Of a stretch of 64,000 bases of DNA, positions 1 to 5,160 are shown one piece after another (the first letter of the stretch is position 1; each line of letters starts with the position of its first letter). A program made the position numbers and the translations under genes. The DNA comes from Sulfurovum sp. (GTDB taxonomy: Bacteria > Campylobacterota > Campylobacteria > Campylobacterales > Sulfurovaceae), in the NCBI RefSeq assembly GCF_015493435.1, contig NZ_WGDD01000054.1, positions 62,001 through 126,000 on the forward strand, given 5' to 3'. A model generated the notes under the pieces. That model was not told the DNA's origin and did no database searches. It worked only from the letters and a program-made list of their open reading frames with translations.

Positions 1-2024
1 GTTACGAATCCTTGTTCAAGACATTGGCCGCAGAAGAGGCTTACTTCATGAAGGCAGATTCTCTCCGCCATCCGATCATCTTTTATTACGGACATACCGC
101 TACGTTCTTTGTCAATAAGCTCAAACTTGCCAAGATCATTGACAGACGCATTGACCCGGAACTGGAATCTATTTTTGCGGTAGGTGTAGATGAAATGAGC
201 TGGGATGATCTCAATGGCCAACACTATGACTGGCCGACATTGGCACATACCCAGACATATAGAAACAAAGTCTATGTTCTGGTCTCGGAACTGATCGAGA
301 CCCTTCCTCTGACCCTTCCTATTACACAGGATTCGCCCTGGTGGGTGATCTTAATGGGGATCGAGCACGAGAATATCCACCTGGAGACTTCTTCTGTTCT
401 GATCCGTCAGCTTCCCCTTAACATGGTGTGTGAAACGGATCTGTGGCACCACTGTGAAGTATGGGGGGAAGCGCCGGAGAATGTACTGCTTTCTGTTTCG
501 GCCGGAAGTGTACAGCTCGGCAAAGGAACAGAGGGTGATTATTTCGGATGGGACAACGAATACGGACATCATCAGACCGAAATTCCTTCATTCCGGGCAT
601 CGAAGTTCCTGGTATCGCATGCGGAGTACCTTGCTTTTGTAGAGGACGGTGCTTATGACAATGAGGCACTCTGGAGTGATGAAGGTGCAGCCTGGAAAGC
701 GTATACCAAAACAAAACATCCGCTTTTCTGGAGAGAAGATGCACAGCAGGCGAATGGTTACCGTTTGCGTACCCTGACTTCCGAGATCCCTCTGCCGATG
801 AACTGGCCTGTAGAGGTGAACTGTCTGGAAGCGGAAGCCTTTTGTCGCTGGCTGAGCAGAAAAAAAGGCAGGAACATTACGCTGCCTACAGAAGATGAAT
901 ATATGCGTCTGCGACGTGCGGCAAACGTACCCGGGTATGCGGTCTGGTCTGCGCGTGGTACAGCCCCCGGCAATATTGACCTCAGAGATGCTGCTTCCTC
1001 TGTACCGGTCGACCGGTATGCACACAATGGATTTTACGATGTCATAGGAAATGTATGGCAGTGGAGCCGTACGCCTATCTATCCTTATGAAGGCTTTGAA
1101 GTACATTCTGTTTATGATGATTTTACGGTGCCCACTTTTGACGGGAAACACAATCTCATCAAAGGGGGTTCGTGGATCAGCTGCGGAAACCTGGCACTGG
1201 AGACAAGCCGCTATGCTTTCAGACGACACTTCTATCAGCATGCAGGTTTCCGCTATATCGAAAGCGGGTACGAAGAAAAGGTGGCGACCAATCCCTATAC
1301 GACGGACAGTATTATTTCGCAGTACTGCCATTTCGGCTGGGGCGAAAACAGGCTGGGGGTAGAGAACTATCCTGCCAAATGTGTCTCCCTGATTGCCGAA
1401 TATATGCAGAATAGGCCCAGTAAACGTGCTTTTGACATTGGCTGTGCCATCGGGAGAAGTACCTTTGAACTGGCACGAAATTTTGATGAAGTAATCGGGG
1501 TGGATTTTTCTGCAAGATTCATACAGGAAGCACAGAAACTCAAAGAGAGAGGTACTCTGTGCTATGTGATGCCCACAGAGGGAGAACTGGAATCTTTTCA
1601 TGAAGTATCGCTTGTGCAGTTCGGCCTCGAAGAGGAGAGGAAAAAAGTTGCTTTCTGGCAGGTGGATGCCTGCAATCTCAAACCGATCTTTGCCGGTTTC
1701 GATCTGATCTTCGCGGGCAATCTTCTGGACCGGCTGTACGATCCGAAAAAATTCCTCGACTCCATCGCTCCGCGTCTCAATGAACGGGGACTGTTCGTAC
1801 TGACCTCTCCCTATACCTGGCAGGAGGAATCTACACCCAAAGAGAAATGGATAGGCGGGTACAGGAAGGACGGAGAACATATGACCACTTTTGAGGGCCT
1901 CACAGAGATACTGGAAAAAGAATTCAGACTGATAGACAGAAAAGATGTCCCCTTTGTGATTCAGGAGACAGCGAGAAAACATCAGCACACAATTGCCGAA
2001 ATGACCGTATGGGAAAAGAAATGA
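1..2024 (+). CDS. ovoA: 5-histidylcysteine sulfoxide synthase / mercaptohistidine methyltransferase OvoA (5' end outside window)
   Basis: OvoA makes ovothiol: an iron-dependent sulfoxide synthase joins cysteine to histidine, and a fused methyltransferase later methylates the mercaptohistidine. The frame is open to the left edge (first complete codon at position 3), and the family normally has some tens of residues before the first visible LRHPIIFYYGHTATFF block, so the true start lies outside. An H-x3-H-x-E iron-binding motif (GIEHENIHLE) is at about nt 360-385. A formylglycine-generating-enzyme-like domain follows, ending near GGSWISCGN and the HAGFRYI block (nt 1170-1260). A class I SAM methyltransferase domain starts with AFDIGCAIGRS (nt 1430-1460). 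The gene ends with an ATGA overlap into the next one, so the two are probably co-transcribed. Family assignment is firm; ovothiol production is inferred. Confidence 0.92.
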   Translation, partial: YESLFKTLAAEEAYFMKADSLRHPIIFYYGHTATFFVNKLKLAKIIDRRIDPELESIFAVGVDEMSWDDLNGQHYDWPTLAHTQTYRNKVYVLVSELIETLPLTLPITQDSPWWVILMGIEHENIHLETSSVLIRQLPLNMVCETDLWHHCEVWGEAPENVLLSVSAGSVQLGKGTEGDYFGWDNEYGHHQTEIPSFRASKFLVSHAEYLAFVEDGAYDNEALWSDEGAAWKAYTKTKHPLFWREDAQQANGYRLRTLTSEIPLPMNWPVEVNCLEAEAFCRWLSRKKGRNITLPTEDEYMRLRRAANVPGYAVWSARGTAPGNIDLRDAASSVPVDRYAHNGFYDVIGNVWQWSRTPIYPYEGFEVHSVYDDFTVPTFDGKHNLIKGGSWISCGNLALETSRYAFRRHFYQHAGFRYIESGYEEKVATNPYTTDSIISQYCHFGWGENRLGVENYPAKCVSLIAEYMQNRPSKRAFDIGCAIGRSTFELARNFDEVIGVDFSARFIQEAQKLKERGTLCYVMPTEGELESFHEVSLVQFGLEEERKKVAFWQVDACNLKPIFAGFDLIFAGNLLDRLYDPKKFLDSIAPRLNERGLFVLTSPYTWQEESTPKEKWIGGYRKDGEHMTTFEGLTEILEKEFRLIDRKDVPFVIQETARKHQHTIAEMTVWEKK

Positions 2025-3220
2025 TGTTTGACAGTATAGACAGAAGCGGTACGTACACGACAAAGTATGAGGATGCGGTCAAGAAGTTCGGTACTGCTGA
2101 TCTCCTGCCCCTGTGGGTAGCCGATATGGATCTGGCATCTCCTGCCTGTGTACAGGAAGCACTGGTCAAACGGGCGCAGCATCCCCTCTATGGCTATACG
2201 GTTTACCCGGAACGCTATTACGATGCGATAAAAACCTGGTATGCAAAGGCTTACGGCTGGAAAATAGCAAAAGAATGGATCGTACCGTGCTACGGGGTCG
2301 TTCCCTCTATCAATTTTGCTATTGAAGCGTTTACGGAGCGGGGCGACGGTATACTCGTTCAGACACCGCTCTACCCGCCTTTTGTTGCCTCTGTCAAACA
2401 CAGAAAACGCAAAGTACTGGAAAATACGCTGGTCTATCAGGAGGGAAGATATGTGATCGATTTCTCAGACTTTGAAACCAAAGCACAAGAAGCGGAACTC
2501 TTTCTGCTTTGTTCTCCGCATAATCCTACAGGCCGAGCCTGGAATGTAGCAGAACTTGACAGGATCATCGATATTTGTGTGCAAAACAATGTGATGATCG
2601 TTTCCGACGAGATACATGGTGATATGGTGTATCGAAAGCAACATCATGCTCTGGGTACTTTTGATAAGATCCGAAAACACTGTGTGATCTTCAATGCACC
2701 TTCCAAGACGTTCAATGTTGCAGGTCTGAATACGTCTTTTGCCATCATTCCTGATGCCCGTGTGCGCAGAGCCTACAGACTTGAACAGGACAGATCGGGC
2801 ATTACCAATGGAAACCCTTTTGGCATTGAAGCACTGATGAGTGCCTATGAAAGCGGGGAAACATGGCTCAAAGCACTGAAAGTGCATTTGCAGGAAAATA
2901 TTGATTTTGTGAAGGGCTGCCTGCAGGAATATCAGCTTCCTATTATTCCGGTAGAGACTGAAGCAACCTTCTTGATGTGGCTTGACTGCCGTGCCATGGG
3001 AATGAGTCATGAAGTTTTGGTACAATTCTTCATTCAAAAAGCCAAACTTGGCCTCAATGACGGAAAAAGTTTCGGTGAATGCGGCAGCGGTTTCATGCGT
3101 TTGAATATTGCGACATCAAAAGAAACTCTGCATGAAGCGATGCATCGGCTGGAAAAAGCATACAGGGGACCTCCAATAATAGGTGATACCCACAACACCT
3201 CTAGCTTTTGTCTAGGTTAG
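2021..3220 (+). CDS. patB: PatB/MalY-type PLP-dependent cysteine-S-conjugate (cystathionine) beta-lyase, C-terminus altered by an insertion
   Basis: A fold-type I PLP enzyme of the MalY/PatB family, which cleaves C-S bonds of cystathionine or cysteine conjugates. Visible family signatures are LPLWVADMDLASP near the N-terminus, SPHNPTGRAW, SDEIHGDMVY, and APSKTFNVAGL with the PLP lysine at about residue 229. The start at 2021 gives an ATGA overlap with ovoA; ATG 2009 and 2024 are alternatives. In OvoA pathways a C-S lyase acts on the histidylcysteine sulfoxide, so this neighbour is a plausible ovothiol partner (inference). The last 18 codons (from 3164) are not native: they are read out of the MITE-like element. 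Removing that element restores an ending KAYKKKKDEK followed by a stop that overlaps the dacB ATG. Confidence 0.88.
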   Translation: MMFDSIDRSGTYTTKYEDAVKKFGTADLLPLWVADMDLASPACVQEALVKRAQHPLYGYTVYPERYYDAIKTWYAKAYGWKIAKEWIVPCYGVVPSINFAIEAFTERGDGILVQTPLYPPFVASVKHRKRKVLENTLVYQEGRYVIDFSDFETKAQEAELFLLCSPHNPTGRAWNVAELDRIIDICVQNNVMIVSDEIHGDMVYRKQHHALGTFDKIRKHCVIFNAPSKTFNVAGLNTSFAIIPDARVRRAYRLEQDRSGITNGNPFGIEALMSAYESGETWLKALKVHLQENIDFVKGCLQEYQLPIIPVETEATFLMWLDCRAMGMSHEVLVQFFIQKAKLGLNDGKSFGECGSGFMRLNIATSKETLHEAMHRLEKAYRGPPIIGDTHNTSSFCLG

Positions 3221-3430
3221 GCACTCTTTTGAAGTCCTAGCCGTAGCTAAGTCGAAAAAGAGTAACGACGCATAGGCGAAAGCTAGAGATGCCCAAAGGG
3301 TAGGCTTTGCAAACGCAATCTTGCACAAGATATTTACTTCGTCTTAGTTATGGCTAGGACTTGAAAGTCTCTTGCCCAATCTTACATTTGCAAAGCCCAT
3401 TGTGGGAATTACCTATTATTAGAGGTCCCC
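3165..3430. mobile_element. 266-bp MITE-like element with 31-bp terminal inverted repeats and TACA target duplication
   Basis: Positions 3165-3195 and the reverse complement of 3400-3430 match at 28 of 31 bases, both starting GGGGACCTC. The element is flanked directly by TACA (3161-3164 and 3431-3434), a 4-bp target site duplication. The interior has nested inverted repeats, for example CTCTAGCTTT near 3200 against AAAGCTAGAG near 3280, and AAGTCCTAGCC near 3232 against GGCTAGGACTT near 3353, so the RNA or single strand would fold strongly. It has no transposase ORF and must be non-autonomous. The parental IS is not recognised; a 4-bp duplication is compatible with IS5-like elements, but that is only a guess. 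It sits in the last codons of patB and separates that gene from dacB. Confidence 0.85.
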
Positions 3431-3453
3431 TACAAGAAAAAGAAGGACGAGAA

Positions 3454-5160
3454 ATGAAAAAAAGTATTATATGGTTCTTTGCCTTGACCATGTGGATATA
3501 TGCATTGCCTGCCGGAATCAGTAAGATCATCAGCCAATCGGGAATTCCTGCAAAAGATATCAGTATCTATATTAAAGAGACAGGAAACAGCAATCGTGTG
3601 CTTGCGTCTCTGAATGCCGAGACGGCACGGACTCCCGCTTCTGTTATCAAGGTGTTGACAACCTATGCGGCTGTTTTGAAACTGGGGTTTGATTACCGAT
3701 GGCCGACCAGGTTTTATATGACAGGCAAGATCAAAGGCGGTATATTGAGAGGCGATCTCCTTGTCAAGGGATTTGGTGATCCGACCCTTTCAGACAAGGA
3801 TCTGGATGATATTGTGACAAAGATCAAAGCCAGAGGGATCCGACAGATCATGGGAAATATTGTGATAGACCGGAGCTATTTCAAAGTAACTACCCGGGAC
3901 AATTCCGGGTTTGACGAACATACGTACAGTCCCTATAATGCCATGCCGGATGCCATGATGTTCAATGAGCGTATCAGTACCATTTGTGTTTCTCCCAAAC
4001 ATAACAGTGTGACCAAAAAAGTGGCTGACAACAGTTACACTATCGTCAATCACCTTCAACCGGTCAACAAGCCCTGCCGCGGACGCTATTCCTGGCCCTC
4101 CTTTAAGGTAGATAAAAGCCAGGGAACGCTAAGTGTACTCCTGAAAGGGCCTATTTCAAAACATTGCGGAACACGGAACTTGTGTCAGGTGATCACCAAA
4201 CCCTATAAATCATTCTATTATGCTCTGAAAGATGCATTGCAGAAGAGCGGTGTCAGTGTCAAGGGAAGTCTGCGTCTCAAAAAGGTACCCACCGGTGCCA
4301 AAGTACTTTTTACCCATTATTCGAAACCGCTTGAGAAGATCATTGCCAAAACAGCCAAAAAGAGCAATAATCTCTACGCAAGGCAGATACTGCTGACACT
4401 GGGTGCAAAAATGTACGGGGCACCGTCAACACTGGATAAAGGCAGAAATGCTGTTGCGTATATTCTTAAAAGCAGAGGTGCATTTACTTCAAGTGTTCTG
4501 CATATCGATAACGGCTGTGGCCTTTCACGTACTTCCAGACTTTCGGCAAAGCTTCTTGCAGATATGTTTGACCATGCCTATATCAGGTACGGGCAGCGAT
4601 GGATGAATACCCTTTCCATTGCCGGGGTGGACGGTACCATACGGAGACGTTTCAGGGGTACTGTAGTGAGAAAGCGCGCCTGGATGAAAACAGGAACACT
4701 CAAGCGGGTCAAGAACATTGGCGGATATGTCAAAAGCAGAACAGGAAGACTCTATACCGTTGTCATTCTGGTCAATACAAGACAGGGAAGATGGAAAGCA
4801 GCACAGCTGCAGAACAATATTATTAAGTGGCTGGTGATGTATAAAGGTAGAGGCAGCATACCCAGGAAGAGCACCCCGTCATTAGGAGCAGTATCACAAA
4901 ACAGTACGGTAAAATATTCGGCCGGTGTACAGCATCTGCAAGCCCGCTATTATATTCAGGCAGGTTCCTTTGACAAGGTACCGGCTGCAGTTTACCTCAA
5001 AAAGATCAAAACATCAGGGTTTTCCTATACAGTTCAAAACGGCTTGAAGTATAAGGTATTGATAGGTCCTTACAGTAAAGAAAAAAGAGCAAGGGCAGTT
5101 TTGGAAAAAGTACGGTCCGATATCAACGGGAAAGCTTTTTTGATCGCTGAGGACAATTGA
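3454..5160 (+). CDS. dacB: PBP4-type D-alanyl-D-alanine carboxypeptidase/endopeptidase with C-terminal SPOR domain
   Basis: Periplasmic S13-family penicillin-binding protein that trims or cleaves D-Ala cross-links in peptidoglycan. It has an N-terminal signal segment (residues 1-20). The three penicillin-binding motifs are in order: SVIK (S63-K66), SNN (S304-N306) and KTG (K412-G414). A SPOR domain follows from about residue 499 (YYIQAGSF...) to the end at 568, expected to bind denuded septal glycan. The start at 3454 is chosen because AGAAGGA lies just upstream and a signal peptide follows; a TTG start at 3361 would add sequence coming from the MITE. Before the insertion the ATG would have overlapped the patB stop. 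The SPOR fusion suggests action at the division site (inference). Confidence 0.9.
   Translation: MKKSIIWFFALTMWIYALPAGISKIISQSGIPAKDISIYIKETGNSNRVLASLNAETARTPASVIKVLTTYAAVLKLGFDYRWPTRFYMTGKIKGGILRGDLLVKGFGDPTLSDKDLDDIVTKIKARGIRQIMGNIVIDRSYFKVTTRDNSGFDEHTYSPYNAMPDAMMFNERISTICVSPKHNSVTKKVADNSYTIVNHLQPVNKPCRGRYSWPSFKVDKSQGTLSVLLKGPISKHCGTRNLCQVITKPYKSFYYALKDALQKSGVSVKGSLRLKKVPTGAKVLFTHYSKPLEKIIAKTAKKSNNLYARQILLTLGAKMYGAPSTLDKGRNAVAYILKSRGAFTSSVLHIDNGCGLSRTSRLSAKLLADMFDHAYIRYGQRWMNTLSIAGVDGTIRRRFRGTVVRKRAWMKTGTLKRVKNIGGYVKSRTGRLYTVVILVNTRQGRWKAAQLQNNIIKWLVMYKGRGSIPRKSTPSLGAVSQNSTVKYSAGVQHLQARYYIQAGSFDKVPAAVYLKKIKTSGFSYTVQNGLKYKVLIGPYSKEKRARAVLEKVRSDINGKAFLIAEDN

Follow-up and report, generated by a model that had tools for sequence, protein, structure and literature searches.

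A 266-bp MITE at the patB-dacB junction of Sulfurovum and its conserved, folded core

The patB and dacB genes of Sulfurovum sp. (assembly GCF_015493435.1; 2.16 Mb in 61 contigs) adjoin one another within a 64,000-nucleotide stretch of contig NZ_WGDD01000054.1 that was analysed as a whole and is referred to here as the window. A non-autonomous element bounded by inverted ends and a short target duplication occupies the junction of the two genes and supplies the last codons of patB (Table 1).

Table 1. Features of the patB-dacB junction and of the inserted element (window coordinates)
Feature	Position	Strand	Remarks
patB (MalY/PatB-type aminotransferase)	2024..3220	+	ATG at 2024; native to 3163, element codons from 3164, TAG 3218-3220
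TACA, left copy of target duplication, 4 bp	3161..3164		
Non-autonomous element, 266 bp	3165..3430	+	Plus orientation (hairpin 1 first)
Left terminal inverted repeat, class A	3165..3195	+	GGGGACCTCCAATAATAGGTGATACCCACAA
Hairpin 1 (I4 arms)	3196..3291	+	Folded-strand selection on + strand
Apical motif of hairpin 1	3234..3253	+	GTCCTAGCCGTAGCTAAGTC
CCC-NNN-GGG mini-hairpin	3292..3300	+	Between the two long hairpins
Hairpin 2 (I3 arms)	3302..3398	+	Upper stem leans to selection on - strand
Apical motif of hairpin 2	3343..3358	-	Hairpin 1 motif read on - strand
Right terminal inverted repeat, class A	3400..3430	-	
TACA, right copy of target duplication	3431..3434		
dacB ribosome-binding sequence AAGGA	about 3443..3447	+	Intact; read from sequence
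dacB (D-alanyl-D-alanine carboxypeptidase/PBP4-like)	3454..5160	+	ATG (3454-3456) overlapped ancestral patB stop

Read from its ATG, the patB frame passes through 380 native codons, continues into 18 codons of the element (RGPPIIGDTHNTSSFCLG) and ends at TAG. Excision of the insert together with one TACA copy yields a patB end of ...KAYKKKKDEK, with a TGA stop that overlaps the dacB ATG as ATGA. The 31-bp inverted ends, the perfect TACA duplication and the clean joining of the flanks on one TACA bear out the original prediction, which held that a MITE had inserted into the last patB codons and that the empty site could be reconstructed exactly; the frame reading agrees with its further claim that seven native codons were exchanged for 18 element-derived ones, and the dacB ribosome site was spared, as had been stated. 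The patB genes of relatives stop soon after the same KAY motif. Among 27 relatives in the genus that carry both genes, the site is empty in every one; the two genes overlap by 4 bases in 24 of them and are separated by 5 bp in the other 3, confirming that an ancestral overlap of patB stop and dacB start was broken. It follows from the sequence that translational coupling of patB to dacB would have been lost through the insertion. The description of the event as relatively recent is not borne out, since the closest available DacB is only about 74% identical and the insertion is undatable by it.

The left and right 31-bp ends of the window copy match at 28 of 31 positions (32 nt and 91% complementary in a repeat search), and in nearly all copies analysed 16-20 of the 20 outermost positions match. 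These terminal inverted repeats, the target duplication with an empty site in relatives, the non-coding interior and the occurrence in many dispersed copies are those of a MITE; no reading frame is open in any of 61 cores. Folded as RNA, the element reaches -122.6 kcal/mol on the + strand and -129.2 kcal/mol on the - strand (z = -10.9 and -12.6), well outside chance expectation.

Within the genus, copies are present in 42 of 78 genomes, with up to about 20 matches per genome, many exactly 266 bp long; full-length relatives occupying different sites in other genomes are 85-94% identical. One hundred copies were retrieved and their ends and duplications read, giving 4-bp target duplications that are mostly TAAA, TTAA, TTTA, TATA or TTAT. 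Within the bacterial family, 78 of 175 genomes contain related cores, covering 9 of 11 genera, and plain BLAST over 399 genomes of the order finds the core in 69. In a sample of the phylum, a covariance model (R1) detects it in 42 of 328 genomes, representing 16 of 60 genera and eight families, all of one order, the Campylobacterales; genomes positive for R1 often carry seven or more copies. In a pattern scan across 84,980 species genomes, 79 of 80 matches listed are either Campylobacterota, to judge by their record titles, or an unassigned MAG. A phage or plasmid origin was considered and rejected, the core pattern being unmatched in viral contigs and represented by one Sulfurovum plasmid record. 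A search of the literature on MITEs in Sulfurovum, Sulfurimonas, Epsilonproteobacteria and Campylobacterota returned nothing on this element, and the large group of elements with the conserved folded core is apparently undescribed. Separately, one complete genome (G001:C1) holds six copies with identical model scores, which suggests a recent burst of transposition.

Alignment of the copies reveals a constant interior between changing ends. From element position 27 to 240 most columns are conserved; the outer positions 2-26 are variable, and at least eight end types, comprising the outer 20-26 bp or so, surround the same 214-nt core in elements whose total length stays near 266 bp regardless. 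The main end classes are A (GGGNACCTCTAATAATAGGT), the type found in the window, B (GAACCCTCTGAATAACC), C (GGGCACCTCTAATAACCCTA), E (GACTTCTTGCATAACC) and J (ACTGACCTTACGCAC), with at least three more; within each copy both ends match each other. The core of L107, a class A copy, is 97% identical to that of L147, a class B copy, with 6 differences over 214 positions, yet the 20-bp ends of the two are unrelated. Of 25 class B cores, 18 have a class A core as nearest neighbour. A tree of the cores requires 24 changes of end class where the minimum is 2; its resolution is poor, and its starred branches force at least three changes for class B. The ends have thus been repeatedly exchanged between transposase specificities while the core was held constant.

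Two of the end classes can be assigned to autonomous elements. Class B ends are those of autonomous IS5-like (PF01609) elements of 1.2-1.3 kb present in several genomes (L073, L075/L420, L418 and L423), and class C ends are those of autonomous L409 (1,270 bp, with a TTAA duplication) and L412; the transposases of these two groups are about 31% identical. Because the first 15 bp or so of class A equal those of class C, the class C enzyme may move class A elements, and we infer that class A is mobilised by an enzyme of the IS5 type. Searches for an autonomous IS with class A ends led to solitary sites that are 24-bp, 53-55-bp and 163-173-bp derivatives or single ends, and no transposase lies between class A ends in 20 stretches from other genomes. 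For class J, only elements of about 267 bp and single ends were found.

The conserved core has a defined architecture, with an outer stem enclosing hairpin 1, the mini-hairpin and hairpin 2, and both its length and its fold are kept down to 54% mean identity. RNAalifold applied to 61 diverse cores predicted 64 pairs, of which 42 show two-sided changes. When the full structure of 76 pairs was scored over the 61 cores, 96.9% of cells were paired, with 325 two-sided cells against 82 +/- 7 after shuffling and 28-42 when the structure was slid along the alignment. Sixty far copies, an independent set that averages 54% identity and was aligned on sequence only, not fitted to the structure, display the same fold: 92.8% of cells are paired against 42-51% in slid controls, two-sided changes occur at 66 of 69 pairs and most stem pairs are found in all four Watson-Crick types. 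When all column pairs are ranked with the tree taken into account, most of the top 17 places go to the proposed hairpin pairs; a tree-aware test of single pairs, which is too conservative to decide alone, retained two pairs at E<0.05. The stems also contain specific mismatches that are nearly invariant (58-101, C.A in 95 of 95; 51-108, G.A in 94 of 95; 150-222, C.A in 91 of 95).

The strand on which this fold is selected can be read from its substitutions, as the same mutation at a double-stranded DNA pair in a stem appears as G.T on one strand and as A.C on the other. Parsimony on the + strand of hairpin 1 counts 57 changes from Watson-Crick to G.T pairs and 5 to A.C, about a tenfold difference; 28 pairs lean to G.T and none in the opposite direction (p about 2e-11 without fixed wobble pairs). 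Mutation bias does not explain this asymmetry, because the opposite lean (18.5 versus 33.8) is seen where hairpin 1 is unpaired. The far set agrees with hairpin 1 in strand polarity, with 113 versus 22 cells. Hairpin 2 as a whole displays no strand preference (22 versus 32), and its upper part, at about 3.5 versus 19, leans to the - strand, on which its tip has the sequence of the hairpin 1 tip. Hairpin 1 is selected as a folded single strand on the + strand, and selection on the - strand is suggested for the top of hairpin 2. Since the pairs of hairpin 1 drift mainly to G.T and seldom to A.C, the selected strand would most simply be RNA.

No orientation bias relative to neighbouring genes was seen among 54 insertions, co-directional cases numbering 11 versus 12, and divergent gaps are over-represented among the sites (16 of 44), so that read-through transcription is not obviously favoured. 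No conserved promoter- or terminator-like site was found in the element; one weak promoter-like match was no more than is seen in shuffled sequences. If hairpin 1 acts from one strand and hairpin 2 perhaps from the other, the lack of orientation bias would fit.

We propose a model in which IS5-type DDE transposases would move the MITE in trans, acting on its outer 20 bp or so and duplicating about 4 bp of target. At the present locus the element landed in the last patB codons, giving the protein an 18-residue foreign tail and separating the gene from dacB. It belongs to a Campylobacterales superfamily in which a core of about 214 nt is held constant and the ends are swapped among transposase specificities. 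The folded strand would be read-through RNA, each hairpin working in whichever direction gives its tip the reading CUAGCC..AGCUAAG, and the core RNA may be recognised by an RNase or RNA-binding protein of the host, with the result that insertions in transcribed gaps would be tolerated in either orientation. To the whole of this explanation, a trans-mobilised MITE with conserved core, exchanged ends and strand selection, we assign a probability of roughly two in three. The functional step within it, from read-through RNA through direction-dependent hairpins and host recognition to tolerated insertions, is a tentative proposal and falls well short of an even chance.

The strongest alternative, which we nevertheless regard as unlikely, is that the hairpins act as DNA, in the form of cruciforms or single-stranded hairpins bound by a host protein or by the transposase, for example in excision or replication, with no RNA involved. 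The same apical motif is present in inverted orientation in both hairpins, much like a bound DNA site, and the overall neutrality of hairpin 2 and the lack of orientation bias or promoter would suit such a role. A cruciform, however, exposes both strands equally and predicts no G.T/A.C asymmetry in hairpin 1, and with insertions in mixed orientations one strand would not always be the lagging-strand template.

Unlikely too, and ranked next, is an ordinary fold-back MITE with functionless hairpins, in which template switching (quasi-palindrome correction) during replication keeps the arms complementary. MITEs are often palindromic, matched changes between both terminal repeats of one copy are very common here, and the 24, 53-55 and 163-173 bp derivatives indicate that the hairpins are easily lost. 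Template switching is strand-symmetric, however, and would not be expected to produce the hairpin 1 excess of G.T (57 versus 5); it should also erase mismatches, yet specific ones are nearly invariant, and the core keeps its length and fold at 54% identity.

Kissing-loop contact between the hairpin tips, giving a compact RNA, was suggested by tips x and x', which are complementary over about 14 bp and nearly invariant in the genus, but it is very improbable and was rejected on covariation: two-sided tip-tip changes number 5 cells versus 1-11 in slid controls, and the tip positions covary inside each hairpin instead. That the insert is a normal inherited patB tail, as its in-frame reading over 18 codons might suggest, is refuted by its absence from all 27 relatives with both genes, the perfect duplication and more than 100 homologous copies at unrelated sites, and retains next to no probability.

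The trans-mobilised MITE with a selected fold can be compared with several known systems. NEMIS/Correia, RUP and ERIC elements, considered here by description, are likewise intergenic fold-back MITEs; they are simple in structure and not known to contain two conserved inner hairpins. This group has been reported to be transcribed and to alter the expression of neighbours through RNA structure (PMC3733652). REP/BIME repeats tagged GTAG or CGTC have been reported in Sulfurovum sp. NBC37-1, and G.T pairing has been taken as a sign of RNA function in such repeats (PMC3733652). They share paired inverted palindromes with the present elements but are, by description, units of 20-40 bp without terminal inverted repeats or target duplications, and an assignment of the window element to them was rejected given its 266 bp, terminal repeats and 4-bp duplication. 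Structured RNAs in Rfam show a similar RNA-like compensatory pattern; neither the window nor related copies gave a match at the gathering score of any Rfam 15 family. MITEs of the IS5 type are alike in inverted ends, short duplication, non-coding interior and copy number, and the class B and C ends are those of autonomous IS5-like elements. Ordinary MITEs, in contrast, have been described as remnants of one parental IS (PMC3733652, PMC4853749), whereas here a 214-nt core conserved across an order is framed by at least eight end types.

A comparable layout is found outside the Campylobacterota. An alphaproteobacterial contig labelled Martelella (L334) carries a 272-bp element of the same layout that scores 87 bits with R1. 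Its neighbours encode PurC and RlmN proteins that we take to be rhizobial. The first 156 bp of this element match 82 Rhizobium plasmid records, and full Rhizobium elements of about 290 bp (L492-L498) have two hairpins around CCCTTCGGG; together, the Rhizobium elements and that of Martelella (L334 4223-4492) span 270-290 bp across plasmids and contigs. A Campylobacterales core aligns to the Martelella copy with z=16 and to a Rhizobium copy with z=5.5. The two-hairpin layout of these rhizobial intergenic repeats is that of the Campylobacterales elements, but their ends differ and R1 misses the Rhizobium copies. They may be known rhizobial repeats (RIME). Some REP elements of S. meliloti are transcribed (PMC2873474).

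The element thus appears to be a variant MITE with interchangeable ends and a core that, to judge from its substitutions, is selected, folded and RNA-like. The usual view takes MITEs for the decaying remains of a single parental transposon. In these elements the interior has outlasted the ends, and a core fold retained throughout an order under repeated exchange of the ends points to a function under selection within a MITE. The swapping of both ends at once calls for a mechanism, and the RNA hypothesis can be put directly to the test through the strand polarity of the substitutions. It is conceivable, at somewhat less than even odds, that these elements represent an undescribed class of selfish element with a structured core, active as RNA with one hairpin per strand, whose spread through Campylobacterales and rhizobia relies on the repeated capture of available IS ends.

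The 31-bp ends had been proposed as a probe for the parental IS and for other copies in the source genome: the copies and their derivatives were found, while the expected parent was not, no PF01609 transposase being present in that genome. A 165-bp element at C43:7440-7604 is a single-hairpin part with the same ends as the window element, a 54-bp element at C29:156684-156737 consists of the two ends only, with TTAA flanks, and C22 and C56 hold single ends. A third, diverged core with ends TATTACCRCACCRACTAAATACCC was detected by the covariance model at C3:5818-6030 (L477 1319-1531); its hairpin 1 tip reads TCGC..GCGA in place of the usual TAGC..GCTA, a compensatory change. At C26:35504-35530 (L009), a 27-bp half-end lies between two TACA copies, as if nearly the whole element had been deleted after insertion. 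In other genomes (G004, G041, G060), 24-bp micro-elements, GGGCACCTCTAATAATAGGTGCCC, recur beside genes (L273, L275, L278, L283, L285 and L286) and are apparently two class A ends fused together; the remaining derivatives of class A elements measure 53-55 bp and 163-173 bp. Finally, GGTGCGGTAATAT is present at two places in the source genome (L009, around 1440-1500, and the right flank of the L477 copy) and is perhaps another small repeat family.
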